A DNA stretch of 45,937 nt from an uncultured Clostridia bacterium (GTDB lineage Bacteria > Bacillota > Clostridia > Christensenellales > Borkfalkiaceae). The stretch is from contig CANQAZ010000004.1 of the NCBI GenBank assembly GCA_947589555.1, forward strand, positions 1 to 45,937. The letters run 5' to 3'. Below the pieces are notes generated by a model. It had not been told where the DNA came from and ran no database searches. It saw nothing but the letters and a program-made list of their open reading frames with translations. The position numbers and the translations under genes were made by a program. Positions 1 through 14,016 of this stretch are shown here, piece after piece (the first letter of the stretch is position 1; the number at the start of each line of letters is the position of its first letter).

Positions 1-122
1 TTTCCCGCAGAAGGAAGTGGGCAAAAAGTGGTACGATTTTCGCAAAAACGGTAGGCAGGATAAGGAAAGTGGTATAATTCCACTTTCGAGCCTCAAAAGC
101 GGGAAACCCGCCTTTTGCTTTT

Positions 123-180
123 CCCCCTACAAGTGGTAGCCAAGTAAGAAGCCCAAAAGTTTACCATTTTCAAAATTTTC
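123..180. repeat. Diverged direct repeat, copy 1
   Basis: It starts with CCCCCTACAAGTGGTAG and continues with a CAAGTA..AAGCC.AAAAGTTT pattern. It matches copy 2 at 231-290 in about 40 of 47 aligned positions by eye, with a one-base indel. It contains an imperfect palindrome, CTAC-AAGTG-GTAG. Two copies 108 bp apart with unequal flanks do not make a CRISPR array. Confidence 0.7.
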
Positions 181-230
181 ATCGAAAAAATATTTGCGCG
201 GCGGTCTGCGCGTGCGGCGGAACGTTCTAC

Positions 231-290
231 CCCCCTACAAGTGGTAGGCAAGTAGCAAGCCTAAAAGTTTCCACTTTCCGAAAAATTTCC
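231..290. repeat. Diverged direct repeat, copy 2
   Basis: Second copy of the repeat at 123-180, beginning with the same CCCCCTACAAGTGGTAG. On the minus strand it encodes the end of a short open frame (GLLLAYHL then stop). The one-base shift breaks that frame in copy 1, which argues against the frame being a conserved gene. Confidence 0.7.
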
Positions 291-304
291 GTAAAATTTC
301 ACAA

Positions 305-333
305 AGAAAAATGCGTATACAATCATATACGCA
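305..333 (-). terminator. Rho-independent terminator of the six-gene operon
   Basis: A perfect 8-bp stem (TGCGTATA at 312-319, TATACGCA at 326-333) with a 6-nt loop is followed, in the minus direction, by five T residues and then CTTT. It lies about 135 nt after the stop codon of the kinase-like gene. Confidence 0.75.
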
Positions 334-465
334 CCTACCATTTATTCTTACTTGATCTGCAATTCCTTTCCTGTTATTCCCGCGTGCTTCGAAAAATACT
401 TCTATACAAAAGAACACACGATGAACCTCATATATTTCTTTTGCAATCTTTTGCCTTCAAGCTAA

Positions 466-1263
466 TTATTCGCTCGAAAGATTGGCCGAATCAACGTATC
501 TTTCGGCAAAACATTTCCCGTAAAACATACATTCATAAATTTGGGCGTAGTAATCGACAAGTTTGTCGTCAAATTTTTCCGTAACGCAATGGAGCAAGGA
601 TTCATTCCTTGCCTTGAACATGCCGTAAATAAAGTTTTTATCCCCCCACAGAGGGCGCTCAATGTCGATGACGCACTTCAATCGCCCGCCACGGAAAATA
701 AAATTTGCCATATTGCAATCGGATGGTACGAAAGAGGCCTCCGACAATCTCGGCACCATGTCGAGGCCCTTGTATAGTATCCCTTTCCGTTGCGGATTTG
801 CGCGGTCAATCACCGATTTCAGGAAGGATCGCCATGATGAAAATTGCGCCCTGCGGTCTTTTTCGAAAAAACCAAATGACGGTGCCGTTATCTGCGCAGC
901 CCTTTGCATAAAGCACACGACCTGGGATAACAGCGCTACATCGCAATTTTTTCGGTAGAAGATCTCCCCCTCCACTCTATCCTCCTCTAAAACGGTGAAG
1001 TCCTTGATCAATTCTCCTTTTTGATATATTTTTCCGATATTGACGACCGGCATCCCATGCTCGATAAGAAGATCATGAGCCGCCTTTTCGATATAATACG
1101 ATTCATCGGTTTGAAGGGTGTTGTATACCGACCGGGCAATCTTAATGACTTTATTACCCTTGGCAAATATATAATGTTTCTCGCTATAATTCAGCGGCGT
1201 ATATCCGAGAGACACGAAACGATGGAAATACGGCTCTTCCTGGGGATTGTTTATCATCTTCAT
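466..1263 (-). CDS. APH-like small-molecule kinase (aminoglycoside/choline kinase fold)
   Basis: 265 residues. The protein has a kinase-like N-lobe lysine in VIKIA (about K41), a catalytic-loop motif SDCNMANF (D182 and N187, the D-x4-N spacing of the APH/choline kinase fold) and a metal-binding VIDIERP (D200). These features predict transfer of phosphate from ATP to a small hydroxylated substrate. The substrate cannot be read from the sequence; a sugar, amino sugar or nucleoside would fit the neighbours. It is the last gene of the operon, and its start codon overlaps the stop of the dehydrogenase-like gene (ATGA), so translation is probably coupled. A methionine two codons further in is an alternative start. 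The catalytic loop resembles the kinase-like domain inside the 1620-residue fusion of the same operon. Confidence 0.7.
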   Translation of the reverse strand: MKMINNPQEEPYFHRFVSLGYTPLNYSEKHYIFAKGNKVIKIARSVYNTLQTDESYYIEKAAHDLLIEHGMPVVNIGKIYQKGELIKDFTVLEEDRVEGEIFYRKNCDVALLSQVVCFMQRAAQITAPSFGFFEKDRRAQFSSWRSFLKSVIDRANPQRKGILYKGLDMVPRLSEASFVPSDCNMANFIFRGGRLKCVIDIERPLWGDKNFIYGMFKARNESLLHCVTEKFDDKLVDYYAQIYECMFYGKCFAERYVDSANLSSE

Positions 1264-2015
1264 CGCCGATAAATTTCATTCTTTTTGATGACGCTTTGTA
1301 TGAGCGTAGTATCAACACCGAACTCTTCCCCCTGTGCCGCGATGGACGCAATATCCTTGGGGAGACAACTGCCACCGTAACCACGGTTATCTTCATAGAC
1401 GAACGTATGGCTTGCGCCAATACGGGGATCGGCGATCCACATCTCTCTCGCCAGATGATAGTCGGCTCCAAGCGCCTTTGCAATGTCATACATTTCGTTG
1501 CAAAATGTTACCTTTGTTGCCAAAAAGGCATTTTCCATATATTTTGCCATTTCAACAGTCTTTGCGTCTGCCTGATAAATGCGCACGTTGGAAGTTATGA
1601 CCTTTTGATAGGTTTTTATCGCCAAGTCGATCCCCTTTCTCGTCCCCCCAAACGATAACCACGTTCTATCGTTCAAATTCGCAAACGGATGGGCGACCGT
1701 TTCTCCGTAATATTCCGGTTGAAACACGATCTCTTTTCCCAACTTTTGCATCATCTCATCGGTAAAACCGACACGCACGGTAGATCTCAACACGATCAGG
1801 GGGACATTCAGCCAGCCTAAAACTTCTTCGACGGCACTCGTGTCACAATGGCCGTCCTCTCTTTGCGGCGTAGGGACGCACACAAAAACCGTATGGCAAT
1901 CGTTGATCTCCGCTTGCGTTCCCATTTCCAAATATTTATCATAGATGATTGCCTCTTTGAATAACCCGTGCATCGCTTTGCCGACATGGCCGTATCCGAC
2001 GATCCCGATTTTCAT
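1260..2015 (-). CDS. UDP-glucose/GDP-mannose dehydrogenase-like protein, short form
   Basis: 251 residues. The N-terminus is a Rossmann NAD-binding fold (KIGIVGYGHVGKAM), with CVPTP at 46-50. The middle domain ends in GYGGSCLPKD, which holds the catalytic cysteine (C217) of four-electron nucleotide-sugar dehydrogenases. Family members usually have about 400 or more residues. This one stops some 35 residues after the cysteine and lacks the C-terminal nucleotide-sugar-binding domain, with no downstream remnant because the next gene overlaps its stop. The ATG at 2015 is chosen over a longer frame because AAGGAGGA lies just upstream (around 2021-2030) and the Rossmann motif begins here. It may oxidise a C6 hydroxyl on an unusual sugar carrier, or need a partner for substrate binding. 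Confidence 0.8.
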   Translation of the reverse strand: MKIGIVGYGHVGKAMHGLFKEAIIYDKYLEMGTQAEINDCHTVFVCVPTPQREDGHCDTSAVEEVLGWLNVPLIVLRSTVRVGFTDEMMQKLGKEIVFQPEYYGETVAHPFANLNDRTWLSFGGTRKGIDLAIKTYQKVITSNVRIYQADAKTVEMAKYMENAFLATKVTFCNEMYDIAKALGADYHLAREMWIADPRIGASHTFVYEDNRGYGGSCLPKDIASIAAQGEEFGVDTTLIQSVIKKNEIYRR

Positions 2016-2028
2016 TTTTTTCTCCTCC

Positions 2029-2583
2029 TTATCTGATCCCGTGATGATATCTTGTATAGAGCCCGAGGTAGCGCTCCAATAAATCAATCGCTTGCAACGG
2101 GTCTTCAACGCCATAGATTTTGTCGTCGATCCCTTTGTATCGCTCCCTGTTGTCAAGCCGCTGCCCCGCAAGTCTGCTGCTCCATCCGTCTACATTGGTG
2201 TAAGCGATCACCGGTCTGAACAGCGACCATGCGAGCGCAATTTCCGAAAGCGTTCCGCTACCGCCGCCGATGGCAATGACGCCGTCCGCGTTTACGACCA
2301 CCCCATTCCGCATGACGTCCAAGCCCGTGGGGATGACGATGTCCGCATAACAGTTCGCCGTCGTCCTATCGAAAGAAGGGAGAATCGCGACCGTGTCGCC
2401 CTCTCGGTATTTCTCCGACGATTTTGCCCCACGAAACACCGCTTCCATAACGCCGCCCAATCCTCCGCTTTGAACTCGGTATCCCGCATCCACAAGCGCC
2501 CTTCCGGTGTCAAAGGCAAGCCGATACTTAAAACTATTCTCCTCGAGTTTTCCGTCGCCGATCACGGCTATTGTTTTTTTCAT
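2029..2583 (-). CDS. LOG / TIGR00725-like Rossmann protein
   Basis: 184 residues. SGGLGGVMEA (39-48) and IGGGSGTLSE (105-114) match the two nucleotide-binding loops of the TIGR00725/LOG superfamily (once called lysine decarboxylases). Known LOG enzymes hydrolyse nucleoside 5'-monophosphates to base and ribose 5-phosphate; many TIGR00725 members have no assigned reaction. In LOG the second motif is PGGxGTxxE; here the proline is a glycine, which fits the TIGR00725 branch better. The start overlaps the stop of the HEPN-motif gene by 4 bp (2580-2583), and the stop lies 13 bp before the next start. It may handle a nucleotide by-product of the glycosyl-transfer pathway or of RNA cleavage; both are inference. 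Confidence 0.75.
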   Translation of the reverse strand: MKKTIAVIGDGKLEENSFKYRLAFDTGRALVDAGYRVQSGGLGGVMEAVFRGAKSSEKYREGDTVAILPSFDRTTANCYADIVIPTGLDVMRNGVVVNADGVIAIGGGSGTLSEIALAWSLFRPVIAYTNVDGWSSRLAGQRLDNRERYKGIDDKIYGVEDPLQAIDLLERYLGLYTRYHHGIR

Positions 2584-4493
2584 GCGTTCTTCTCCTTTGT
2601 TCTGTAAATTTGCACCGTCACGACCCCTTCATTATAACTATCTATGAGCTCGAATCCCACCGCCGCGCCATTTGACGTGATCCTGTTCAAGTCGGTTGCC
2701 AAGGTTTGAAAGAATACCAACTCCCGCTTCCCGATATCGGTGCCGTTGATTTCCAAATCGGCCCCTTGGATTTTAATGAGAGTCAGACGGTTGAAAGAAA
2801 ATTTATTGTCCTTAAGCCGATAGACCGTCGCCGGAATATTGAAGTAAAATTTATATGGCGCCCGGGAGATCAATGCCTCCTCCGTCCTTGCATCGAACAT
2901 GGAATTCTTCACGGCATTCAAAGATTTTTCGATTTCGGAACAGCTCTCCTTCACTTTTTCGCCGTTCTGCCGAAACAACACAAACGACGTCCGGACAATG
3001 CGTTGATATTTTACACCAATTAAATTATTCAAAATGTGGTTATGATAATTTGCCCTTACATACGCTGCACGGCTTTGATTGTTTGGCGTCTCGAGAAAGG
3101 CGACAAAGTCATCAAAAGTGGAAATAATGAATGGAAGATCGAGATAGTATCCGCCCGTGTTGCTATAAAAATAGTAATCGTTCAATATCCCGTAGTGTGC
3201 GGCGAAGTTTCTCAGTGTAATAAGCCGCCGTTTCAAATCGGACGGAACATTCAACTTATCCAAAACATCGGAGACTTTAGAATATGTACCATATACCGGG
3301 ATGTTCAGTTCAAATACGAACTTTTCCTCTAAATTTAAGAACACCTTTTGAACCCCTCCGCTCGTGCTTTTACTGATCTCGCGCATATCGGCAGAAGAGT
3401 TTCCGCTACAAAGGATCGTCAGGTTTTTGTCGCGGTAAAATTTGGGCTTATTGAGTTTTAAGAGCTGCTCTACATCGATGTCGGATGGTTCATTCAGCTC
3501 TTCGATTTTGTTTTGATACAGGTACGCCACGCCCATTGCCGGAGGCACGGCTTTGCATATATTGATGAACGCTTCGGCATTATTGATCTTCAATGTATAG
3601 TCACTTTCAAAAAACTTGCCGATGTTACTTCCTTTGCCTATCGTTAAAATGTAGTTGTTCGATGTCTTTTCAAGCCAACCGAAGATGCAAAAATGCGGCG
3701 ATTTTACCCTATCGCTCAAGTCGAGTGCAAATTTTCGGACATTTTGACCGACCGTAGAAATTTCCACCTCGCGATAGAGACATCCGAAGATACTTTCAAA
3801 GACATCCCCGCATTCTGTTTCTTCCCGAATATCCGCTTCATAATTGTTGCGGAAAGCGTCATTGAGCTTTTGGGACAATTCATTTCTTTGCGCGAAAAGC
3901 GCCGAGGGCACCATTTCGCCCCACAAAGCCGTACCCCAAATGTTGACGAAATTGGCGATGAACGACTGCAGATCTTTCTGCGATAGAGCCGCAAGGATCA
4001 TAATGAGCATCCCTGCGATCGTCAACTCCCCGTCACGGGCATAGGAAACGTTGTCCGCGATTTTTGGGAATGCCCCGATCAGGGCTTCGTCCACCTTCAT
4101 CGTGCAATGCAACTGCGTCGAAATAATGGCGTGCAGATTGATATTCCGAAACCGTTTCAACATCCATGTATAGCAGGTGATGCCATCCGCAGTCTCTTGG
4201 CTTCCGTCGGCATTATAAATAACATACCGATTGTCGGCGAGTTGCTCATAGAGGAAGGGGAACTGTTCGCTGAAAAGGCGCTTATCGATCCGATCGCCCT
4301 CCAAAGCGATATCAGCAAAATAGACATAGCGGAAAACCCGCTCTATTTGTACAAGCGCCCCCGACAGTATCCCCTTAAAAGTAAACAGATCCTTCCCGGA
4401 GACATAGTGCTTTTTTCGGTGGTAGATCAGATTGACCGTCGCGTTCAAAAACTCCAAAGACCGCAAATCAAATTTTGTTTTTTCGGGATTCAT
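2580..4493 (-). CDS. Unrecognised 637-aa protein with two HEPN-type RNxxxH motifs
   Basis: I do not recognise a named family. Two copies of the R-x4-H active-site motif are visible, both with the favoured Asn in second place: RNINLH (R116-H121) and RNFAAHYG (R428-H433). Each follows helix-rich sequence (about 40-60, and 403-427 with SDLKRRLITL). HEPN ribonucleases use this Arg/His pair to cut RNA, and two-HEPN proteins such as Cas13 build one composite site from both motifs. At 637 residues it would be small for such a protein. There is no signal peptide or clear membrane segment; a hydrophobic helix sits near 159-170 (MLIMILAAL). The start overlaps the end of the giant gene by 26 bp, and the stop overlaps the LOG-like gene by 4 bp. 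The HEPN assignment rests on motifs only. Confidence 0.5.
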   Translation of the reverse strand: MNPEKTKFDLRSLEFLNATVNLIYHRKKHYVSGKDLFTFKGILSGALVQIERVFRYVYFADIALEGDRIDKRLFSEQFPFLYEQLADNRYVIYNADGSQETADGITCYTWMLKRFRNINLHAIISTQLHCTMKVDEALIGAFPKIADNVSYARDGELTIAGMLIMILAALSQKDLQSFIANFVNIWGTALWGEMVPSALFAQRNELSQKLNDAFRNNYEADIREETECGDVFESIFGCLYREVEISTVGQNVRKFALDLSDRVKSPHFCIFGWLEKTSNNYILTIGKGSNIGKFFESDYTLKINNAEAFINICKAVPPAMGVAYLYQNKIEELNEPSDIDVEQLLKLNKPKFYRDKNLTILCSGNSSADMREISKSTSGGVQKVFLNLEEKFVFELNIPVYGTYSKVSDVLDKLNVPSDLKRRLITLRNFAAHYGILNDYYFYSNTGGYYLDLPFIISTFDDFVAFLETPNNQSRAAYVRANYHNHILNNLIGVKYQRIVRTSFVLFRQNGEKVKESCSEIEKSLNAVKNSMFDARTEEALISRAPYKFYFNIPATVYRLKDNKFSFNRLTLIKIQGADLEINGTDIGKRELVFFQTLATDLNRITSNGAAVGFELIDSYNEGVVTVQIYRTKEKNA

Positions 4494-7400
4494 CAGCTCT
4501 CTCCTTTGCTCGTTTGAGTAAAATTTCTTTTATTTCTTTTTTGTGACTTGCGTCATATTTCCCTCTGTGACTGCGGTTTTCCATGCTTGGTTCGAAGTAG
4601 TAGAGAATATCTTCAATAAAAACGTTCTTCTTTGATTTTGCGATCATCGGAAGCATCATGGCAAAATCGGTGTTCACTTCCACAAATTTTCCGTCTATCC
4701 GCAAATCCTTCTCTACATCGATACAGTCGAACAACTTTCGTTTGAAACATTTCGGATGCAGCCAAATATTGTCTCCGTCACGCTCCCAAACCCTTTCAAA
4801 GGAATAGACCATGTAATTTTTCAACGGTTTGTCGTAACGGATGCAGTTACCGCATGTAACCTCTGCCCCGCGTTGAAATTCGGCTATGATCTTTTCGACT
4901 GCGTGGTCGTTCACGAAGTAGTCGTCATTGTCGAGGTTGATGACAACAGCCTCAGGATTGACAATCACATGATTCATGACAAAAACAAGATTTTCGATCT
5001 CTCCCACGTTCGTGTCGTTGAACAAAGCGACTGTTTTATTCTTAAAATACCTGTCGTAACGTAAAACATATTCCGCATAAGCGGCGCTTTCATTTTGCGA
5101 TGCGTCGTCCACATAGACAATCGAAAAATCCTGATACGTCTGATTTTTAAGGCCGGCGAACATCCTCTTCAGCCTTTCGGGAGGCGTATTGTACCCCCGG
5201 ATATAAATTACCACATCGGCATTCGTTGTTTTTGTCCATGCCGCTTTATCGCCGATAAGATCGACCTGCCCATATTGAAGTTTCGGCAATCGATCGTTCG
5301 CGATACGGCTTTCCGCATAAGCGATCAGATTGGCCTCTCTCTTCTTACAATTCTCGGGATGGACGAACCAGACGTCCTTATCGGAAAGACGAACGCTCTC
5401 TTGCCCCTGCAATTTTTTGTCCAAAGCGCGGTGCCAAGGAAGCTGCACCATGCCGTCTTTCACCTCGTTCCCCAGCGGCAACAAGGCGCGCAGTTTATCC
5501 AACGCCAAAAAGCAAGAACGCACCTCTGTTCTGCACCCATATACGGGTGGAGCCGCCGCTTCCTTGGCGATGGAGAGCGATACGGCGATCGCGCCTTTCC
5601 GCAGGAAATCCATCCCTTTTAAGAACCTTTCGGCATCCGCATTGTGATACAAAATATCGCTGTCCGTCTGGAAAACACAATTGGTTTTAACCGCCTCGAA
5701 CCCACAAAGAGTTGCATACAACCCCTGACCGTTGGCGCTGTGTCCTTCCACACTTTCGACGTCGAAATATTTCCCGTACAGCGCTTTTATATTCTCTTCA
5801 TCTTGCTCGGCATAGACGATCTCATCGATCGATCCGTTTTTTTTCGCCCGCTCCAGCTCCGAGCGCAACGCAAGGACATCGTCCCGTTCATACCGCCTTG
5901 CCCGCTCGGAAACATGCGTCAAATCGGCTACAACCACCTTGCGGACAAACCGCCCGCCCCTTTCGAGCGTTCCAACGATGTGGTTGATGTTGCGATAAAT
6001 CGACCTATGCTCCATCGGATTGGTCTTGATCAGCAGAGATAAATCGTCAAACACCCTTGGGTCGGCTATCTTTTTACAATCAAAGATGATGTGCTCCGAA
6101 ATCGGCATGAGCGTGTCCAAATTTGCACCGTCGCCTTCCACGATCTGTTCGATGACCAATCCGTATTTCCCGAAAAGATTTTGATAATACTCCACGGGAC
6201 GATGAAATTCCAAACGGTTCTTCCCAGTCTCTGCGGAGCATTTCCAAAATACTTCAGCGCAATGGTAGTTGCCCTTCAATGCTGTCGTTCTGAGTTCCGT
6301 ATTCTGGACGCTGTTAAAAAAGGGGTTGCAAATGCTGATGATCGCACGCCCTTGATGGCTCAACGCAAAAGAAATATTCCGTACAACTTCTTCTGCGACG
6401 TTATTATCAACACAGCACAATACAAGATTGCTGATCACCAAATCGTATTCGTGACGGGGAATATCCTCTGCGCGCTCGAAAATACAAACCGAAGGACGCG
6501 CACGCTTTGTTACGGTATCGAGATCGATATCAAAGACGCTGACGTCGAAGCGTTCCGACAGCGTATTGGCGATCTTGCACTTCCCCGCCCCGTAATCCAA
6601 GATCTTAACGGGACGGTATCCTTCCGCCAACTGCAATACTTTGCCGTCGTGCAGATCTTCTTTGTAGCGCTTGTTTACGACTTGGCGGAATAAGTCGCAT
6701 CCGTCATCTAAATATCGGCTGGTTCCCTGATAATACAGTTGTATCAGCTGTTTGAAGTCCTCTTCGGTCAAAAACGGATAGCGCAACATTTCATACACCC
6801 GTACGACCGACTTATCGTGCTTCCTCTCATCAAACGGCAGGAAAGACTTTCCGTAATCGATCAACTTTAATTTCCCGTCTACAACTATAAAATTACACTG
6901 TTTATAGTTATCGAATACAAAACCGTTCTCTTTGGCAAATCGCAAAAATTCGGCCAACTGCCTTGCGTGACCGCCGCGATACGGACATGACTTTTCATAC
7001 GGATAACGTATTATATCCGTCCCATCCGCCTTAAAAAACTCCAACGGATACAAGGCATCGCATTCATGAAAATTCCTTGCGATCTTTTTGAAAAACGCCT
7101 CGTTTACCAACGGCTTATAAAAGTATTTATAAACGTATCTATCGTCGGTAAATACGGCGCCCTCGCCGCCGCTGCCCAATAACCGCAGTTTACCTTTCGA
7201 TACGGAAAACAGCTCCTCGATCTTGGCCTTCATCTCATCGGAATGAGTCATTTGCGCCCGAATCTGTAATTTGCGGCGGAAAGATTCAAACGACACAGTG
7301 ACTTTATTGAAATCCAGATAAGCGGCCGCTTCTTTCATAAAAGCCCGCAATCGCCCATCCGTGAACAGCACAGAGTATTTATCGTCATTGACGATAGAGA

Positions 7401-9330
7401 GCAACCCCCGAATCCGAAAATAGGAAGCGGTAAACTTCACCAACCGTTTCGTAAAATATTCTTTATAAACGCGATGAAATTCTTCCTTCGGAACATCGAT
7501 ACCGACTTGCTCTATCGCTTTGGTAAAAGAAGAGCCGATAAGATCCAGCAACAGTTTTTTTGTCTCCTTGGCCATATCGAAAGGCGCCTTGCTACGATCG
7601 TGGAGCGTTGCGAATGGCACATTGGCGAGCTTGTACCCCGCGGTCTTTGCCTGTAAAACCCAAAAATAGTCGCCCCGGCGACCTATTTTGTCGCCAATTT
7701 GTATCGACCAGTTGGGAAGCATTAAAAGTTCACGGTTAAAAATCAATGTGTTCCCGCCACGACTTTTTACCGTTCCTACCTTCGTGCTTTGCAGATACAG
7801 CGGGCGACTGTGCGCTTTACCGCTAAAGATATCGTCGAGCGTACAAGCGTCTTTGAGCGCCAAGGGCGTTTCTAAATGTATATTACCGAAATCCGACAAA
7901 TCGTAATAGTAATCGGTACAATCTGAAAGTGTAACTGTTTTGCCGATCTTTGCGGTTTTGCAATATACGTAATCTAACAGCGCCACCCGAAGCGTAGAAA
8001 GTGCGGGGAGCGGAGCGTCTAAAGAGTAATTCCCCACAACAGCATCGTATGCGCCCATATATAGAGGTATCACGCTATCTATATCGAGTGGAATTTGCCG
8101 TAAACCGCCGTTTTGCAAAACAAGTTCGTTCAGCTCCATATCTTCATCCAGAACCCAAACGACGTCTCCGTCGGCGGTGCATTGATGCAGATATTTTTGC
8201 AAAATCGTCCGTGCGACTGCGATATCCCGTATGATATCGCCCTGCAACTTTTCCGCAGTGACAAGCGGATCGGGGCCTCGCTTTTCAATACTCATCAGAA
8301 TCCTGTTTTTATCTATGAGCTCGTATCGATAACCGCTTGCCTTCAACTCCGCCAAATACGGCGTTCTGTCCTCCGTAAAATTGATCAGGATCACGATTTT
8401 TGTGTTGTCACGTTGCAGGGAGGTCAATTGTTTTAGAAGCCGCAGACCTAACCGATAATCGGTTGCAATAAATCCTATCGTCAAGCGCCCCTTGTAGGCC
8501 TCCGCTGCAGGTTTGCGTTCGAAGTCAACGCTTTGCGCTCTTTCGATGTTTTCGATTTCCTCTTTCGAAACTCCGAACAAATTTTGAGCACGATCAAAAA
8601 AAGCCCCCTTCGTTTCATCGGACATGTAACCGCTATATTTGTAGTAAAACTTTTTCAAGCCGTCCGTTTTTCCTGCCGCTCCGTTGGTGATGCGCGCACG
8701 GTCGTTAAAAGCATTCACCTCTACCAAGTACTCGTTTAGCACGGCGTACGCGGGCTTCAAAAGCATGATCCTTGTAAAGACATCCCGATCTGTTGTCGAG
8801 CTCATATTTTCATCGAATAAACCCGCTCTGAGCAAGGTGTCAAGCCGAACAAAGGTATTGGAGCCCTGGAGGTGCGGATTCCCGCGTAAAAAACTGTCGA
8901 TCGATAGCGTTTGCGGAATGGAAAGTTGTTTTGCCCCCTCTTCGCTCCGATATATCAACCCGCTGACAAAGAAATCTTCTCCGTGCAACGTCTGTTCGGC
9001 CTTTCCCAAATAAGTATCCCGCCAAACATCGTCATCATCCAAAAAAGCGATATAGATATCCGCATAATCGCTTTGCAAAAATAAATTCTTTTTCAAAATA
9101 TAGTGAATGGCGGTATTCAACGACCCCGCATAGTTATGCGCAAAAGCATCTTCCAGATATGTTACTCCGGAATTTTCAAGCAGCTGCCTTTCGCTTTCCT
9201 TGTTTTGAGCCGTCGAATCGGTGACGACAATCACTTCGTCGGCACGACGGGTCTGGGAGAATACCGAATCCAATGCCTTTTTCAAAAGATTTATTCGATT
9301 TTTTGTTGTAATAACCGCAATGATTTTCAT
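4468..9330 (-). CDS. Giant glycosyltransferase / kinase-like / methyltransferase fusion (1620 aa)
   Basis: Domains in order, rough residues: GT-A family 2 glycosyltransferase (1-230; ITTKNR start, DDDD at 98-101); a second GT-A-like unit (283-580; LDEDMEL at 394-400); a protein-kinase-like fold (715-835; glycine loop GSGGEGAVF at 719-727, K735 in VYKYF, NFIV at 813, LIDYGKS at 823-829); a class I SAM methyltransferase (908-1080; ILDYGAGKCKIA); a third GT-A-like unit (1128-1330; QTDSD at 1221-1225); and a C-terminal family 2 glycosyltransferase (1372-1590; VYVDDAS, LDNDD at 1466-1470). No signal peptide or membrane segment is visible, so it is probably cytoplasmic. Kinase plus methyltransferase on one chain recalls WbdD, which caps O-antigen chains, though there the order is methyltransferase then kinase. 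The position of the catalytic Asp in the kinase loop reads DN rather than a clean D-x4-N, so activity is uncertain. The start abuts the radical SAM gene. Confidence 0.8.
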   Translation of the reverse strand: MKIIAVITTKNRINLLKKALDSVFSQTRRADEVIVVTDSTAQNKESERQLLENSGVTYLEDAFAHNYAGSLNTAIHYILKKNLFLQSDYADIYIAFLDDDDVWRDTYLGKAEQTLHGEDFFVSGLIYRSEEGAKQLSIPQTLSIDSFLRGNPHLQGSNTFVRLDTLLRAGLFDENMSSTTDRDVFTRIMLLKPAYAVLNEYLVEVNAFNDRARITNGAAGKTDGLKKFYYKYSGYMSDETKGAFFDRAQNLFGVSKEEIENIERAQSVDFERKPAAEAYKGRLTIGFIATDYRLGLRLLKQLTSLQRDNTKIVILINFTEDRTPYLAELKASGYRYELIDKNRILMSIEKRGPDPLVTAEKLQGDIIRDIAVARTILQKYLHQCTADGDVVWVLDEDMELNELVLQNGGLRQIPLDIDSVIPLYMGAYDAVVGNYSLDAPLPALSTLRVALLDYVYCKTAKIGKTVTLSDCTDYYYDLSDFGNIHLETPLALKDACTLDDIFSGKAHSRPLYLQSTKVGTVKSRGGNTLIFNRELLMLPNWSIQIGDKIGRRGDYFWVLQAKTAGYKLANVPFATLHDRSKAPFDMAKETKKLLLDLIGSSFTKAIEQVGIDVPKEEFHRVYKEYFTKRLVKFTASYFRIRGLLSIVNDDKYSVLFTDGRLRAFMKEAAAYLDFNKVTVSFESFRRKLQIRAQMTHSDEMKAKIEELFSVSKGKLRLLGSGGEGAVFTDDRYVYKYFYKPLVNEAFFKKIARNFHECDALYPLEFFKADGTDIIRYPYEKSCPYRGGHARQLAEFLRFAKENGFVFDNYKQCNFIVVDGKLKLIDYGKSFLPFDERKHDKSVVRVYEMLRYPFLTEEDFKQLIQLYYQGTSRYLDDGCDLFRQVVNKRYKEDLHDGKVLQLAEGYRPVKILDYGAGKCKIANTLSERFDVSVFDIDLDTVTKRARPSVCIFERAEDIPRHEYDLVISNLVLCCVDNNVAEEVVRNISFALSHQGRAIISICNPFFNSVQNTELRTTALKGNYHCAEVFWKCSAETGKNRLEFHRPVEYYQNLFGKYGLVIEQIVEGDGANLDTLMPISEHIIFDCKKIADPRVFDDLSLLIKTNPMEHRSIYRNINHIVGTLERGGRFVRKVVVADLTHVSERARRYERDDVLALRSELERAKKNGSIDEIVYAEQDEENIKALYGKYFDVESVEGHSANGQGLYATLCGFEAVKTNCVFQTDSDILYHNADAERFLKGMDFLRKGAIAVSLSIAKEAAAPPVYGCRTEVRSCFLALDKLRALLPLGNEVKDGMVQLPWHRALDKKLQGQESVRLSDKDVWFVHPENCKKREANLIAYAESRIANDRLPKLQYGQVDLIGDKAAWTKTTNADVVIYIRGYNTPPERLKRMFAGLKNQTYQDFSIVYVDDASQNESAAYAEYVLRYDRYFKNKTVALFNDTNVGEIENLVFVMNHVIVNPEAVVINLDNDDYFVNDHAVEKIIAEFQRGAEVTCGNCIRYDKPLKNYMVYSFERVWERDGDNIWLHPKCFKRKLFDCIDVEKDLRIDGKFVEVNTDFAMMLPMIAKSKKNVFIEDILYYFEPSMENRSHRGKYDASHKKEIKEILLKRAKERADESRKNKI

Positions 9331-10161
9331 TTATTCTTGCTCTCCCGCAACAATCTCTTTCGCGTATTGCGTGTCGCCGTCACAATAGGTACAAGCCTCG
9401 GAATATTTTCCGCTGTACAGCTTTTTTAACTCCGTTTTCAACTTTTTTTCGGGAAGCGTAAGCGGAATGCCCTCGTCCGGTATTTTACCCATCTTTGCCA
9501 TGATCGCCGCTCTCGAACACACATAAATTTTCCCTTCATAGAGAGACGTGCAGCGCTTCATGTTGCAATCTTCAAATCGATTGCATCCCCGTTGAGACAC
9601 TTCGCCCATGTCTTTCCATATCTGATCCTTCAAATATATATGGTGAACGCCGAATTTCTTTAGTTTTTCTATCAACTGCTGCGTTTTTATATTCGGCAAT
9701 TGGTAGTCGCTGATTTGAACTGCGATCTTGCTGTTTGCGATGGCTTGTAAAACATCATCCGCGGGGATAATTGTCCCATTCGTCGTCAAACGAATCGACT
9801 TGATTTTGGATTGGCGATCCACATACTCGATCCATTCCCGCAGCCGGGGATAGAGGAACACCTCGCCGCCATGGATCTTCAACCGATAGAGGCAGTCGAT
9901 TTTCGATAACAGTTCATCGAGCCACCCCGTCAAATCGGAAATTTCATAATGTATTTGCCCGTCCATCGCAGGGATCAAATTAGAACAGTGCTTGCAATGC
10001 AAGTCGCACTTGGTCGTGATGAACATTTCAAGATATGGGATCTCAAAATGGCGCAATATATCTTGACGATACCAAATGTAAAATGCCGCCTTGCGTTCGG
10101 ATATTTCCCTATTCTCTTTCAACCAATAATGCAGGCATTCCCTGCGTATTTTGAATTTCAT
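9331..10161 (-). CDS. Radical SAM enzyme with extra C-terminal cysteines
   Basis: 276 residues. KCDLHCKHC carries the CxxxCxxC iron-sulphur motif (C52, C56, C59); HGGEVFLYP near 97-105 is the GGE SAM-binding motif. The C-terminal third has further cysteines (C193, C199, C204, C215, C257, C260), including CNRFEDC and CTYC, so a SPASM- or Twitch-like auxiliary cluster is likely. The family makes radical changes to peptides, sugars or cofactors; the substrate is unknown. It is the first gene of the operon, 1 bp from the giant gene, with a GGGAGA ribosome site about 5 nt before the ATG. An enzyme acting on a sugar or on a glycosylated peptide would suit the glycosyltransferase next door. Confidence 0.85.
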   Translation of the reverse strand: MKFKIRRECLHYWLKENREISERKAAFYIWYRQDILRHFEIPYLEMFITTKCDLHCKHCSNLIPAMDGQIHYEISDLTGWLDELLSKIDCLYRLKIHGGEVFLYPRLREWIEYVDRQSKIKSIRLTTNGTIIPADDVLQAIANSKIAVQISDYQLPNIKTQQLIEKLKKFGVHHIYLKDQIWKDMGEVSQRGCNRFEDCNMKRCTSLYEGKIYVCSRAAIMAKMGKIPDEGIPLTLPEKKLKTELKKLYSGKYSEACTYCDGDTQYAKEIVAGEQE

Positions 10162-10180
10162 ATTTCTCCCTAAATGATAG

Positions 10181-10207
10181 AAAACCCCGACGCATCGTCG
10201 AGGTTTT
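10181..10207 (-). promoter_or_regulatory. Leader hairpin of the six-gene operon
   Basis: A 12-bp stem with one mismatch (10181-10192 with 10196-10207) and a CAT loop lies in the 5' leader, 20 nt before the radical SAM start. In the minus direction it is followed by only four T's, so it is a weak terminator at best. It may stabilise the leader or attenuate the operon. On the plus strand it is followed by a longer T-run. Confidence 0.5.
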
Positions 10208-10314
10208 TCCTTTTTACTATATAGACTCGGCGATAAAATTACATAAAAATTATTTTATGCTGACTTTTTGATGCCATCCGTCATCTCGAAGCCATTTAAG
10301 TTTTATCTGATAAT

Positions 10315-10343
10315 ATATTACCACCCCTCTTTATGTTTGTCAA
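10315..10343 (-). promoter_or_regulatory. Sigma-A promoter of the six-gene operon
   Basis: TTGACA (10338-10343) and TAATAT (10315-10320) are separated by exactly 17 nt on the minus strand. Transcription would begin near 10308 and leave a leader of about 147 nt before the radical SAM start. The remaining 268-bp gap (10162-10429) holds only the leader hairpin and no gene. Confidence 0.8.
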
Positions 10344-10429
10344 GAAAAATTCGTAAAAATATTGGGCTTTGAATTGTGAGATCTGAAGAAATGGCCTCTC
10401 ACCCTTCGGCATGAACCCTCTACGGCATT

Positions 10430-11227
10430 TCAAATAATTTTTACGGGATCGTCATCCTCGTCGAGCTTTTGAAGCCGCTCGTAGAAATCCATCACTTTTT
10501 GGGGAAACGCCACATTGAGCAGGGTGATCGGTTTCTCCCGCCCCTCGAGCAAAACAACCAAATCCCCACGTCGTTTTGTCGCTTTTTCTCCGAGCAGGAT
10601 ATCCTTTATCTTCTCCAACGGAATGCAAACCACATTGCTCGCTGTTTCATACGTATGAATGATCAAGTGCGTATTGTTGATCTCTCCGAAAGCCGCACCT
10701 TGCGGATTTTTATAATCTCTTGCAAACGCCACAATTTCTATAATCGCCACCGGGGTCAAAACAAAAGATACACCACCGAGAACCATGCCGGCAAGAGATA
10801 AAGGTCCAATTGTAAGCAAGATCCCGGCGGTCAGCAAGACTATGGAAATAACAAGAACGGCGAGGATCGTAATGTGGATCGCAAGTTTGACATGATCTTT
10901 TTTCCCGAGCCTATATTGGCAGATATCATAGCGGATCTTTGTGTTAATGCTTTTTTGGGTGTCCAACGGAACGTTGTGCAGAACGCTTTTTAATGTTTCC
11001 GCGTCGTTTAGGTCTATGGTTTCATCCAAAAGCACGTCGAAAGACACGCCTAAAACTCTCGCGATATCGCGGATGTTGTCGAGCTTCGGCTCAAACTTCC
11101 CATTCTCCCAGTCGGATACCGTCTGCCGCGTCACGCCCTCGGTGGCTTCCGAGAGGGAGTAACCGAATTCCTCCTGCGACATCCCTCTCGCTTTTCTCAA
11201 GATTCTGATTTTCTCGGATAGCTTCAT
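10430..11227 (-). CDS. Membrane-anchored XRE-family regulator
   Basis: 265 residues. Residues about 6-70 form a Cro/CI-type helix-turn-helix (RGMSQEEFGYSL, TRQTVSDWENGK). Residues about 115-175 contain two strongly hydrophobic segments (ITILAVLVISIVLLTAGILL and a following one), and the C-terminal 90 residues look like a small beta domain on the cytoplasmic side. The DNA-binding domain is thus tethered to the membrane, which suggests a membrane or envelope signal. ATG at 11227 is preferred to a TTG two codons upstream because AGGGGAG lies 6 nt before the ATG but touches the TTG. It follows the 121-residue gene by 11 bp and is upstream of, and parallel to, the six-gene operon, which it may control (inference). 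Confidence 0.8.
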   Translation of the reverse strand: MKLSEKIRILRKARGMSQEEFGYSLSEATEGVTRQTVSDWENGKFEPKLDNIRDIARVLGVSFDVLLDETIDLNDAETLKSVLHNVPLDTQKSINTKIRYDICQYRLGKKDHVKLAIHITILAVLVISIVLLTAGILLTIGPLSLAGMVLGGVSFVLTPVAIIEIVAFARDYKNPQGAAFGEINNTHLIIHTYETASNVVCIPLEKIKDILLGEKATKRRGDLVVLLEGREKPITLLNVAFPQKVMDFYERLQKLDEDDDPVKII

Positions 11228-11238
11228 CTGCAACTCCC

Positions 11239-11604
11239 CTAATTGTGCTTGATCGTACTATATATCTCGTTGAAAGTTTCTTCATCCTCAGCTTCGGCGA
11301 GTTTATCGATTCCCTCAAACAATTCGTCAAGCCGAAGGTTTGCACGATATGGCTCTTTTGCGATTCCGCGAAAAAGCCGAATTTTACGGTTAAAACGTCT
11401 GATTGCTTCATATTGCAGTTTCGGGCTTTGTTCAAATTGCTTCTGTAGCTCGACATACTCTTTTGCCGATATGTCGCGGCTCACACAATAGTCATACAAG
11501 ACGCTCTTGAAAAGAGCATTCCGTTCCTCTTGAAGAAGCTCTTCAATGTTGTCGTCGCCAAGTTTTGCAGCCCCAATGTTCTGTTGTTCGGTTGCATTTT
11601 TCAT
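11239..11604 (-). CDS. Hypothetical protein, 121 aa
   Basis: I do not recognise this protein. It is charged and apparently all-helical, rich in Glu, Lys and Arg, with no signal peptide, membrane segment or cysteine motif. AGGAGG lies 8 nt before the ATG, so translation looks real. It sits 11 bp ahead of the membrane-bound XRE regulator in one likely transcript, so it may modulate that regulator. Confidence 0.65.
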   Translation of the reverse strand: MKNATEQQNIGAAKLGDDNIEELLQEERNALFKSVLYDYCVSRDISAKEYVELQKQFEQSPKLQYEAIRRFNRKIRLFRGIAKEPYRANLRLDELFEGIDKLAEAEDEETFNEIYSTIKHN

Positions 11605-11645
11605 AAAGTTACCTCCTAAATTTCAGAGCCCATCTCGCTCCTGTC

Positions 11646-11674
11646 GCTATAACTTTACATTATTTTTGCAACAA
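11646..11674 (-). promoter_or_regulatory. Possible promoter for the 121-aa gene and XRE regulator
   Basis: TTGTTG (11669-11674), 17 nt, TATAGC (11646-11651) on the minus strand. The match to consensus is weak. No terminator with a U-run is seen after the AbiEii stop, so read-through from abiE is an alternative. Confidence 0.35.
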
Positions 11675-11744
11675 AAGCCACCAATCGCACCCTTGAATTT
11701 TGTCAGGTTGAACCTTACATCGCTTGGAATATCGGCTTTCGCCT

Positions 11745-12683
11745 TCATTCCACCCCTCTTGTGCGCCACAGGGCGGCGGGGTGGCGTGAGATGCGTTGAA
11801 CAATATCCTCGTCGCAAAAAAGGAGTGAAGGTTCATAGATTTTCTCTTTCATTTTCTGCACGAATTCGGTTTCGCCCGCCGTCAAAACAAGCAGTTCTTT
11901 CAAGTAGTCGATTACGGTCGTCTTTGCCCTCTCGATGTCAAAAGTGTCCGTCTTGGCGATCACGGGCTTCAACTGCGTCTTGAATTTGTAAAAATTCAGA
12001 CTTTCGAGATTGGAATAGTTCAATTCCAAAATCGAATAGTCACCCGCGATGACGCTGTAAAAGATCAGACATTTTTTGAGTAACGTTTTGTCGCTCACAA
12101 TGCCGCGCTCGATCATAGAATGGACGTCGTACAAGTCCCGCGGCGTCGCCCGCGATAAAAGCGCGTTGATCTTGCTGGCATATAGTTCGGTCGTATTCAG
12201 CGTAAGAACGTCAAAGCCGCCGATAATTCCCTTCGTCAAAAGGCTCTTCTTCTCGAGGGGAAGGATATGGCAACGGTCGAGATAGTTGACCTCGACTTTG
12301 ATATTGTCCCGATTGCCCGCGCAGTTGATATAGCCGAACACAAAAGATGTGAGCGCGAAATACTCCCGCGTGTCGATGAGCGAATAACCCTCCTGAAACA
12401 TATAGTCCGTGAGGCGCTTGCCGATCTTTTCCTTTACGGCAGGGAGTTCCTCGCGGGCGACGTTTTCCGCATAGTCGAGGTCGATATCCACGGAGAGCCG
12501 CGGAAGTTCGACCGCCGTCAGATTGATCGCCGTGCCGCCCTTCAGCGCGAGTTTTCCACCGATGACGGTGTCGGTGTTCAAAAAACGCAAGACCTCGGCG
12601 AGCCGCAAGACCTTTTCGAGCGTTTCCTTGATGAAACCCGTCTGCGCCGCCAATGAGTTAAGATATTGCTTTGAAAATTCCAT
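11745..12683 (-). CDS. abiEii: AbiEii-type nucleotidyltransferase toxin
   Basis: 312 residues. LKGGTAINL followed by SVDIDLDY (D66, D68, D70) is the nucleotidyltransferase motif I of AbiEii toxins (the family's GSx10DxD pattern). KINALLSRATPRDLYDVH matches the later conserved lysine and RDLYD motif. Related toxins (AbiEii, MenT) transfer nucleotides to tRNA or other targets, halting translation and aborting phage infection. The start codon follows the antitoxin stop directly (TAA-ATG) with GGAGG just upstream, the usual bicistronic layout. Both catalytic motifs are intact. Confidence 0.9.
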   Translation of the reverse strand: MEFSKQYLNSLAAQTGFIKETLEKVLRLAEVLRFLNTDTVIGGKLALKGGTAINLTAVELPRLSVDIDLDYAENVAREELPAVKEKIGKRLTDYMFQEGYSLIDTREYFALTSFVFGYINCAGNRDNIKVEVNYLDRCHILPLEKKSLLTKGIIGGFDVLTLNTTELYASKINALLSRATPRDLYDVHSMIERGIVSDKTLLKKCLIFYSVIAGDYSILELNYSNLESLNFYKFKTQLKPVIAKTDTFDIERAKTTVIDYLKELLVLTAGETEFVQKMKEKIYEPSLLFCDEDIVQRISRHPAALWRTRGVE

Positions 12684-13421
12684 TTAATAGCCTCCTCCAA
12701 TCCGCGAAATGAGATTTTTCGGCGCCATAAGCCGCCACTCGGAATTGTATTCCACTTCACCGTATTCGTCTTTCAAGAAATATTTCACTTGCCTTGTCAG
12801 ATGCCGTTTGCATTCGTCAAAGAAAGCGTCCGACAAGCCGAATTTTTCTTGATAGTGTTGCAGAATATATCCCGCCTTTTGATATAGAAGCACGCAGTTA
12901 TATGCGTTGAGCGCGCCGAGCAGTTCCTTCTCGTCGAGGATACGAATTTGTCCGAGCGCGCCGAGCAGTTCGTCGATCCCGCCGCAAGAATCAATGTCGT
13001 CGATACAGTCGATCACCGTGCGTTCGAGCGTAGTGACGCGCACACCTGCCTGTTCGATATACGCAATACCATAATCGTTGTTCGGCTGTTTGCGGATATA
13101 ATCGACGTCGAGGAAGGTGAACGGATTGAACCGTGACTTGCTCCCGACCGTCACTGTATGAAACACCTGATTCGCCGCGCCGTAAAATTCCAATGCCGAA
13201 TGATAGCAGAGGAAGGCGTCGTCCGCAATCTTGCTTGCGATCTCGAATTTCGTCGCCATCGGCTCGCCAGTAACGTCTGCGAGGACATAGAGCCCCTTAC
13301 GCACCTTCATGATCTTTTTGGTGCGAAGCTGTCCCGCGATCCAATTTTCGTATTGCATATCGCTCGAGAACTGCGGGCGGACATCCGCTTTTGTAAAGAG
13401 ATAGGGAACTTGTTTTACCAT
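12684..13421 (-). CDS. abiEi: AbiEi-type antitoxin and autorepressor
   Basis: 245 residues. The N-terminal ~60 residues form a winged-helix domain ending in KVRKGLYVLAD, typical of AbiEi. The central part (YHSALEFYG, VTTLERTVIDCID) is the conserved AbiEi C-terminal domain. In type IV systems AbiEi neutralises the toxin without the stable complex of type II pairs and represses its own promoter by binding inverted repeats. It abuts abiEii and is preceded by a consensus promoter overlapped by a palindrome. An AAAGGATG ribosome site precedes the ATG. Confidence 0.9.
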   Translation of the reverse strand: MVKQVPYLFTKADVRPQFSSDMQYENWIAGQLRTKKIMKVRKGLYVLADVTGEPMATKFEIASKIADDAFLCYHSALEFYGAANQVFHTVTVGSKSRFNPFTFLDVDYIRKQPNNDYGIAYIEQAGVRVTTLERTVIDCIDDIDSCGGIDELLGALGQIRILDEKELLGALNAYNCVLLYQKAGYILQHYQEKFGLSDAFFDECKRHLTRQVKYFLKDEYGEVEYNSEWRLMAPKNLISRIGGGY

Positions 13422-13442
13422 AATGACTTCATCCTTTTAACT

Positions 13443-13471
13443 ATTATAGCGCGAAACAATATGATTGTCAA
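13443..13471 (-). promoter_or_regulatory. Consensus sigma-A promoter of abiE
   Basis: Perfect TTGACA (13466-13471), 17-nt spacer and perfect TATAAT (13443-13448) on the minus strand. A promoter this strong needs repression, fitting AbiEi autoregulation. Transcription would start near 13436, leaving a leader of about 15 nt. Confidence 0.9.
13456..13468. promoter_or_regulatory. Candidate AbiEi operator
   Basis: A perfect inverted repeat, ACAAT-ATG-ATTGT, sits in the spacer and overlaps the -35 box of the abiE promoter. Binding here would block RNA polymerase. Assignment to AbiEi is inference from position and the known autorepression of the family. Confidence 0.5.
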
Positions 13472-13503
13472 CGGTTTTGAGCGGATCTGAATAATAATAT
13501 TGC

Positions 13504-13543
13504 AAAAAAAGAAAGCTCATGATTTTTGCTCACGAACTTTCTT
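13504..13543 (-). terminator. Terminator of the collagen-like gene
   Basis: A 14-bp stem with two G-U pairs (13509-13522 with 13530-13543), 7-nt loop, followed on the minus strand by a run of at least seven T's. It lies about 30 nt beyond the stop of the collagen-like gene and just upstream of the abiE promoter, so it separates the two units. Confidence 0.9.
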
Positions 13544-13572
13544 ACCATAACTTCCCGCTTTTGATTTTTCCC

Positions 13573-14016
13573 TTAAAGCACTTGTTCTGTGGGTCCTGCG
13601 GGCCCCGTTTCGCCCGTCGCACCCGTCGGTCCGACCGGCCCCGTTTCACCCGTCGCACCCGTCGGTCCGACCGGCCCCGTTTCACCCGTCGGCCCGACCG
13701 GCCCCGTTTCACCCGTCGCACCCGTCGGCCCAACCGGCCCCGTTTCGCCCGTCGCACCGCGCGGGATCGTAAAGGTCAGGATCGCGTTCACGTCTCCCGT
13801 TTGGGTGACGGAAGCGGGAGTTCCGGGCTCCCCCGTGACCGTTCCGCCGACCGTGATCGTGGCGGGCCCGGTCGCGCCCGTCGCGCCCGTCGCGCCGGCA
13901 GGACCGGCAGGACCGGTGGCGCCCGTGGCGCCGCGAAGGGCACAGCCGAAGCCGCACCAACCGCCGCAGGTGCAAGGACAATTCCCGCAGATTTGGCAAC
14001 GTCTGTAAATCATCAT
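13573..14016 (-). CDS. Collagen-like Gly-X-Y repeat protein with Cys-rich N-terminus
   Basis: 147 residues. The first ~27 residues carry six cysteines ([11 protein letters not shown], then GWCGFGC). Residues 29-52 are GAT/GPA collagen triplets, 53-85 a non-repetitive stretch ([12 protein letters not shown]...LTFTIPRG), and about 87-143 a second collagen block built from the units [12 protein letters not shown] and GETGPVGPT. Such proteins trimerise into triple helices and in Firmicutes are often spore-surface or envelope filaments. No signal peptide is visible, which fits spore-coat assembly or cysteine-based anchoring. AGGAGG lies 6 nt before the ATG. The second block is encoded by near-identical ~36-bp repeats that should expand and contract. 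Confidence 0.85.
13600..13760. repeat. Short tandem repeats encoding the second collagen block
   Basis: Several near-identical units built on CCCGTCGCACCCGTCGG and CCGACCGGCCCCGTTTC, with a period of 36 bp and one shorter 27-bp unit. They encode Gly-X-Y triplets and keep frame. Copy number is likely variable between strains. Confidence 0.85.

Follow-up and report, generated by a model that had tools for sequence, protein, structure and literature searches.

The question raised by this locus is whether a protein carrying two RNxxxH motifs, encoded among sugar-modifying genes, may be a two-HEPN ribonuclease that acts without CRISPR, as the original prediction proposed, and what such an enzyme would be doing in that setting. 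The DNA analysed, hereafter the window, is the whole stretch of 45,937 nucleotides from an uncultured Clostridia bacterium (GCA_947589555.1, contig CANQAZ010000004.1). The gene and its motifs lie as follows.

2580..4493, minus strand: two-HEPN-motif protein (637 aa from an ATG, plus stop), with RNINLH at residues 116-121, RNFAAH at 428-433 and conserved acids E51 and E389
4131..4148, minus strand: codons of motif 1 (RNINLH, residues 116-121), calculated from the reading frame
3195..3212, minus strand: codons of motif 2 (RNFAAH, residues 428-433), calculated from the reading frame

Two motifs in one chain

The predicted open reading frame at 2580-4493, encoding 637 aa, was borne out with minus as the coding strand, the plus strand of the same interval being interrupted by seven stops, and translation places both motifs where they had been reported, 312 residues apart. 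The rough estimate that about 0.03 RNxxxH matches would arise by chance in a protein of this length proved about right, with at least one match in 599 of 20,000 composition shuffles, and two matches are indeed improbable by chance, at least two having appeared in 7 of 20,000 shuffles of the 637-aa protein. A background of 123 other ORFs of at least 100 aa, drawn from the neighbourhoods of family members (45,603 aa, related copies of cassette genes included), held one RNxxxH in total, and none of the 123 held two. Exactly two per protein are present in all eight main members of the family to which the window protein belongs.

This family is small, comprising beside the window protein seven further members (one of them broken) and a compact 448-aa relative. 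The seven are L004, L011, L012, L013, L014, L015 and L016, from genomes G239, G890, G958, G855, G1027, G1073 and G915, respectively; they share 32-60% identity with the window protein, and the most distant pair of main members shares 31%. L015 is broken after about residue 575, and its sequence was taken up to the first stop. The compact relative, from G1065, surfaced as weak rows in the searches of the order and of the family of G958; it is 20-23% identical, lacks residues 221-346 and matches the family profile in two stretches, one per motif (E 3.8e-13 in an hmmsearch of that one sequence). In addition, a near-identical fragment of 104 aa (98%) stands at a contig end in G085.

Conserved residues and selection

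The original prediction hinged on the Arg/His pairs being kept in homologues, and R116, H121, R428 and H433 are identical in all nine sequences, down to 20-23% identity. The alignment of the eight main members has 653 columns, of which 73 are invariant, among them those of R116, N117, N119, H121, R428, N429, F430 and H433, and of the eight His residues of the window protein H121 and H433 are the sole invariant ones. The compact relative retains R116, N119, H121, R428, N429, H433, E51 and E389, with N117 replaced by A. In the available text of PMC3710099, HEPN signatures are described as Rx4-6H, typically with a polar residue after the Arg, and many families are given a second acid, typically within Ex3[KR]. 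The polar residue is found here as Asn in eight of nine sequences at motif 1 and in nine of nine at motif 2, and an acid upstream of each motif, E51 and E389, is identical in 9/9. In the first half (HEPN1), E51-x3-R55 conforms to Ex3[KR], R55 being present in 8/9, and in the second (HEPN2) the window protein has the acid part of Ex3[KR] alone, as E389 lacks a Lys or Arg at +4. At the level of sequence, the HEPN ribonuclease signature is present twice in one chain. The gene is under purifying selection in the two pairs compared (dN 0.09 against dS 0.52, and dN 0.15 against dS 0.97; dN/dS about 0.17 and 0.15).

Distant kinship and predicted fold

No match to the window protein came from Pfam (E up to 1), PHROGs (E up to 1), PADLOC (E up to 10) or NCBIfam (E up to 10). 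Profiles of known HEPN families, to which the original prediction had looked for corroboration, gave nothing over the curated cut-offs of Pfam and NCBIfam in any of the eight main members, and on this point the prediction went unsupported; Pfam Abi_2 (PF07751) likewise gave no match at E up to 5 in all eight. Nine weakly matching Pfam or PADLOC families were recorded overall, seven of them non-HEPN by name. The remaining two are the only HEPN-named matches, and each, though weak, covers motif 2: Csx1_HEPN on L015 (E 0.06, residues 410-455) and PADLOC AbiD on L016 (E 0.016, residues 416-446). Compared by hhalign with an Abi_2 alignment of five proteins from five of six loci (the sixth, L046, was left out), the motif-2 half aligned with RNxxxH in register (P 0.0012, probability 19%), as did the motif-1 half (P 0.02, probability 2%); among the controls, P was 0.21 and 0.36 for the middle and C-terminal parts and 0.27-0.73 for five unrelated families of the cassette. 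An earlier run with eight sequences had given P 0.003 for the motif-2 region, 0.04 for the motif-1 region and 0.17-0.25 for other parts. The weak profile matches and the hhalign probabilities, which reach 19% at most, are not significant alone; they are suggestive of kinship to HEPN, and profile comparison at motif 2 points weakly to the AbiD/F type. HEPN1 and HEPN2 compared with each other by hhalign gave no mutual alignment (P 0.15).

An AlphaFold2 model from the single sequence has a mean pLDDT of 33 and a pTM of 0.21, too low for a fold to be read, including the four-helix bundle of HEPN with the motif closing helix 3, and its helices at 104-116 and 418-433, which end near the motifs, carry no weight. 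In PDB sequence searches, isocitrate dehydrogenase came up at E 1.1 when one sequence was used and at 0.04 when two were, and eight sequences gave nothing up to E 10; this match was set aside as irrelevant.

It could be argued that the two RNxxxH matches are a structural coincidence in a non-HEPN protein, and the lack of a significant profile match, the lack of detectable likeness between the two halves and the poor model would all fit such a view. However, a coincidence of this kind is quite improbable given that the Arg/His pairs persist in 9/9 sequences at 20-23% identity, contain the only two invariant His residues, are accompanied by paired acids and align in register with Abi_2. Taken together, the conservation of the Arg/His pairs and of the upstream acids E51 and E389 supports the proposal of a candidate two-HEPN ribonuclease without CRISPR.

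Comparison with CRISPR effectors and AbiD/AbiF

The absence of an array from the window was upheld by a direct-repeat search of its whole length (copies at most 120 nt apart and at least 22 nt long), which found no CRISPR-like array; apart from a triplet repeat of collagen-like type, it returned a single 53-nt repeat in two copies. The former, at 13589-13932, has a nine-base period and on the minus strand translates, as read, into collagen-like Gly-x-y repeats; the copies of the latter (123-175 and 231-283) are 83% alike, lie 108 nt apart and stand just downstream of the operon described below. No tRNA was found in the window. Cas1 had no match in the genome, and Cas13 had none in the profile or PDB sequence searches. 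The abiF RNA (RF03085) was found neither in window positions 1-14000 (E up to 1) nor in seven loci around the other main copies (119,001 bases at the gathering score, the G1065 locus left out).

An RNA-guided effector, either Cas13-like or of the kind from which Cas13 descended, might be imagined, as two RNxxxH motifs in one protein are a Cas13 trait found here at motif level and the 448 aa of the compact relative fall within the 429-577 aa given for Cas13an in the available part of PMC12165695. Against such an effector stand the lack of an array in the window and of Cas1 in the genome, the missing abiF RNA in the loci searched and the lack of any upstream gap for a guide RNA in the cassettes, and we regard it as very improbable indeed. 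The family shares with Cas13 and the compact Cas13an two HEPN motifs per chain but differs in having no known guide and in its setting in a glycan operon. The same source, in the part available, proposes that Cas13 arose when two closely related HEPN genes of defence systems fused and describes twelve AlphaFold database clusters with intramolecular HEPN dimers, two of which lie beside CRISPR arrays and constitute Cas13an. The other ten clusters, compared here by their description, also have two HEPN per chain and are not reported beside arrays in that part of PMC12165695.

AbiD and AbiF (Abi_2, PF07751) share with the present family an RNxxAH motif, which is RNQCAH in Clostridioides difficile AbiF in the available text of PMC12373285 and RNFCAH, RNFAAH or RNFCSH here, as well as the in-register hhalign alignment, the weak AbiD profile match and defence genes near some copies. 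However, AbiF is described in that text as a single-HEPN homodimer with an antitoxin RNA, whereas here two motifs lie in one 637-aa chain; open frames of AbiF relatives span 179-329 aa, and no abiF RNA or Pfam Abi_2 match was found for this family. Csx1/Csm6 of type III CRISPR are linked to the family by the weak Csx1_HEPN match of L015 at motif 2 but differ in that no CRISPR context was seen around the family. Csx1/Csm6 proteins have a single HEPN per chain and a ligand-sensing CARF domain.

An operon with sugar genes

The further genes of the operon are listed below.

466..1263, minus strand: APH-like kinase, 265 aa (E 0.025, under Pfam's cut-off)
1260..2015, minus strand: short UDP-glucose/GDP-mannose dehydrogenase-like protein, 251 aa from the start common to relatives (a longer ORF starts at 2171)
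2029..2583, minus strand: SLOG cluster 4 protein, 184 aa, overlapping the HEPN gene by 4 bp
4468..9330, minus strand: multi-domain protein, 1,620 aa, overlapping the HEPN gene by 26 bp
9331..10161, minus strand: radical SAM protein, 276 aa, abutting the 1,620-aa gene

The 1,620-aa protein has GT2 domains near both ends, a weak kinase-like region at about 742-827 and a methyltransferase-like region at about 900-1018, a combination that presumably resembles polysaccharide chain-capping proteins such as WbdD. The order radical SAM, ~1,620-aa protein, HEPN, SLOG, UDP-glucose-dehydrogenase-like protein and APH-like kinase is common to the window, L028 (G958) and L029 (G855), the kinase gene of L029 being truncated by the contig end; the L031 cassette (G1073) lacks the kinase, and that of L032 (G915) lacks both SLOG and kinase. 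The operon recurs in five genomes of four families. That the gene lies inside a glycosyltransferase operon, as originally claimed, is right, and this placement is not accidental, because its position behind the 1,620-aa gene is kept in all five. The overlap of the two frames amounts to 11-26 bp at four loci (the window, L028, L029 and L031) and to 110 bp in L032 if the longest start is taken. Relative to the window, identities in L028, L029, L031 and L032 are 60, 58, 42 and 32% for the HEPN protein, 70, 70, 55 and 48% for the 1,620-aa protein and 86, 84, 71 and 72% for the dehydrogenase; within the cassette, the HEPN gene and the kinase change fastest. Unrooted trees of the HEPN and 1,620-aa proteins agree for the five loci where both are present.

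The operon and the HEPN gene are separable. In G239, G890 and G1027 the HEPN gene is present and the 1,620-aa protein has no match (0/3), with a query that did match in other genomes; conversely, G989 encodes the 1,620-aa protein together with the dehydrogenase, and G812 only a 549-aa stretch of the former, and neither genome has a HEPN match. Because G239, G890 and G1027 on the one hand and G989 on the other carry one without the other, the HEPN gene is a module that occurs with or without the glycan genes.

These observations bear on two further explanations. A two-HEPN RNase could regulate or process the transcript of its own glycan operon as a form of housekeeping control, with a placement like that of MtlR, a HEPN protein located mostly within mannitol operons according to the available part of PMC3710099, and both the overlap of its frame with that of the 1,620-aa gene, seen in five genomes, and the agreement of the trees at common loci are in keeping with it. 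However, a dedicated regulator is not expected to outlive its operon, as the HEPN gene does in three genomes (G989 showing the reverse), and control of this kind seems unlikely. Alternatively, the protein may be the toxin of a toxin-antitoxin pair within the operon, restrained by the overlapping SLOG protein or another neighbour. The SLOG overlap of 4 bp in the window, L028 and L029, and the presence of SLOG in L031, favour such a pair, but no SLOG relative was found in the L032 cassette or around the three stand-alone copies, the DprA upstream in G239 excepted (DprA we take to be kin to SLOG), and no gene family is common to all neighbourhoods; an in-operon pair is accordingly distinctly doubtful.

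Distribution

The HEPN gene is sporadic. True members occur in 2 of 103 genomes of the genus, in 3 of 398 of the family (the window's own, the G085 fragment and G239), in 8 of 395 of the order sample (own copy and G1065 counted) and in 3 of 46 genomes of the family of G958, while the samples of the class (391 genomes, apart from one weak row, L009, that was not read) and of the phylum (299 genomes) returned the own copy alone; the genus, family, order, class and phylum samples overlap. Of 16 rows from the order search, seven full-length or broken members (own included) and G1065 were kept and eight were dropped: L017, L019, L020 and L021 were read and rejected as non-members, and L022, L023 and L025, which overlap in the matched stretch and are of similar size, and L024, which has internal stops, were left out with the matching frame unread. 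The four rejected on reading resemble what we take to be RNase J-type proteins. The family search gave seven rows, three of them real; L005 and L007 were unrelated on reading, and L006 and L008 were left out of the counts with the matching frame unread. No relative of the HEPN family was found in viral contigs, where two of the searches used a single protein and reach close relatives only, or in plasmids and phages, and the 1,620-aa protein had no match in plasmids at E 1e-50.

Defence and other neighbours

Four of the eight main copies have defence or mobile genes no more than about 7 kb from the HEPN gene or its operon. In the window, an AbiEii-type toxin gene (11745-12683, minus strand; Pfam AbiEii, E 1.2e-21) stands 1.6 kb beyond the operon; G239 has an AbiL-like pair 2.5 kb before the HEPN gene, with the DprA gene between; in G915 a TIR protein and HsdR (type I R-M/TIR) lie about 4 kb and about 6 kb beyond the operon; and G958 has a TnpX-type recombinase 2.4 kb beyond it. 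No defence or mobile gene was recognised in G890, G1027, G855 and G1073, where few neighbours were profiled, part of the rest was judged by eye and two contigs end within a few kb. As a raw count set against no background rate, these neighbours support a defence role only moderately.

Several other neighbours were recorded. A 245-aa gene directly upstream of AbiEii, the pair spanning 11745-13421 on the minus strand, has no PDB match and, as a guess from its position, is probably the antitoxin partner. The compact HEPN gene (L018 1117-2460, minus strand) and a full-length one (L027 9080-10987) lie near genes that read as anaerobic ribonucleotide reductase nrdG/nrdD, and the XRE-type regulator adjoining the compact gene is very like that at window 10430-11227. 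Near two stand-alone HEPN copies there is a 70%-identical protein of 269/273 aa (L027 7094-8681 and L030 11467-12643), which has no Pfam match (the L027 copy was scanned) and is followed in each case by a probable membrane protein.

A model of action

The present data allow a model in which the window protein is fairly likely to be a non-CRISPR two-HEPN, metal-independent endoribonuclease with its halves paired, serving in defence as an effector of the abortive-infection type. According to the available parts of PMC3710099 and PMC12165695, HEPN RNases work without metal, produce 2',3'-cyclic phosphate ends and as a rule form dimers, which in Cas13 lie within one chain. The putative HEPN halves, with borders at about residues 10-150 and 370-510, would pair intramolecularly, such that R116/H121 and R428/H433 make up a single composite active site, a natural arrangement given that both Arg/His pairs sit in one chain. 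At rest the protein would be inactive, and a trigger may be sensed by two regions, the middle one (about residues 221-346) and the C-terminal one (about 510-637), the former likely being an add-on sensor or regulator because the compact relative lacks it. Once triggered, the protein would cut cellular or phage RNA, possibly bringing growth to a stop, without any involvement of CRISPR. It may work in the manner of AbiD/F dimers or of the paired HEPN domains of Cas13, a predicted resemblance that does not amount to evidence of membership of either. In the window the protein would be made together with the glycan-modifying operon, which is scattered across several families of the order.

For a defence effector that acts by itself, so tight a link to sugar genes is unusual. 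As a more speculative extension, with a small but real chance of being correct, the six-gene operon may be one conflict system, in which a two-HEPN RNase of a lineage separate from Cas13 is kept under control by a signal (a glycan, a nucleotide sugar or a nucleotide) that the giant glycosyltransferase/kinase-like/methyltransferase partner, the radical SAM protein and SLOG process, and in which RNA cleavage is set free when the signal is lost or altered as phage attack.

If Cas13 arose by fusion, RNases with two HEPN in a single chain are to be expected outside CRISPR, and a family with full-length and compact forms, stand-alone and operon-bound copies and conserved catalytic residues offers a test bed for guide-free triggering. 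A literature search found no published description of an operon of HEPN and a giant glycan protein, nor does the available text of PMC7159879 describe one. The 1,620-aa protein (4468-9330), with several glycosyltransferase-like, kinase-like and methyltransferase domains in one chain, is itself worth a study of its own.
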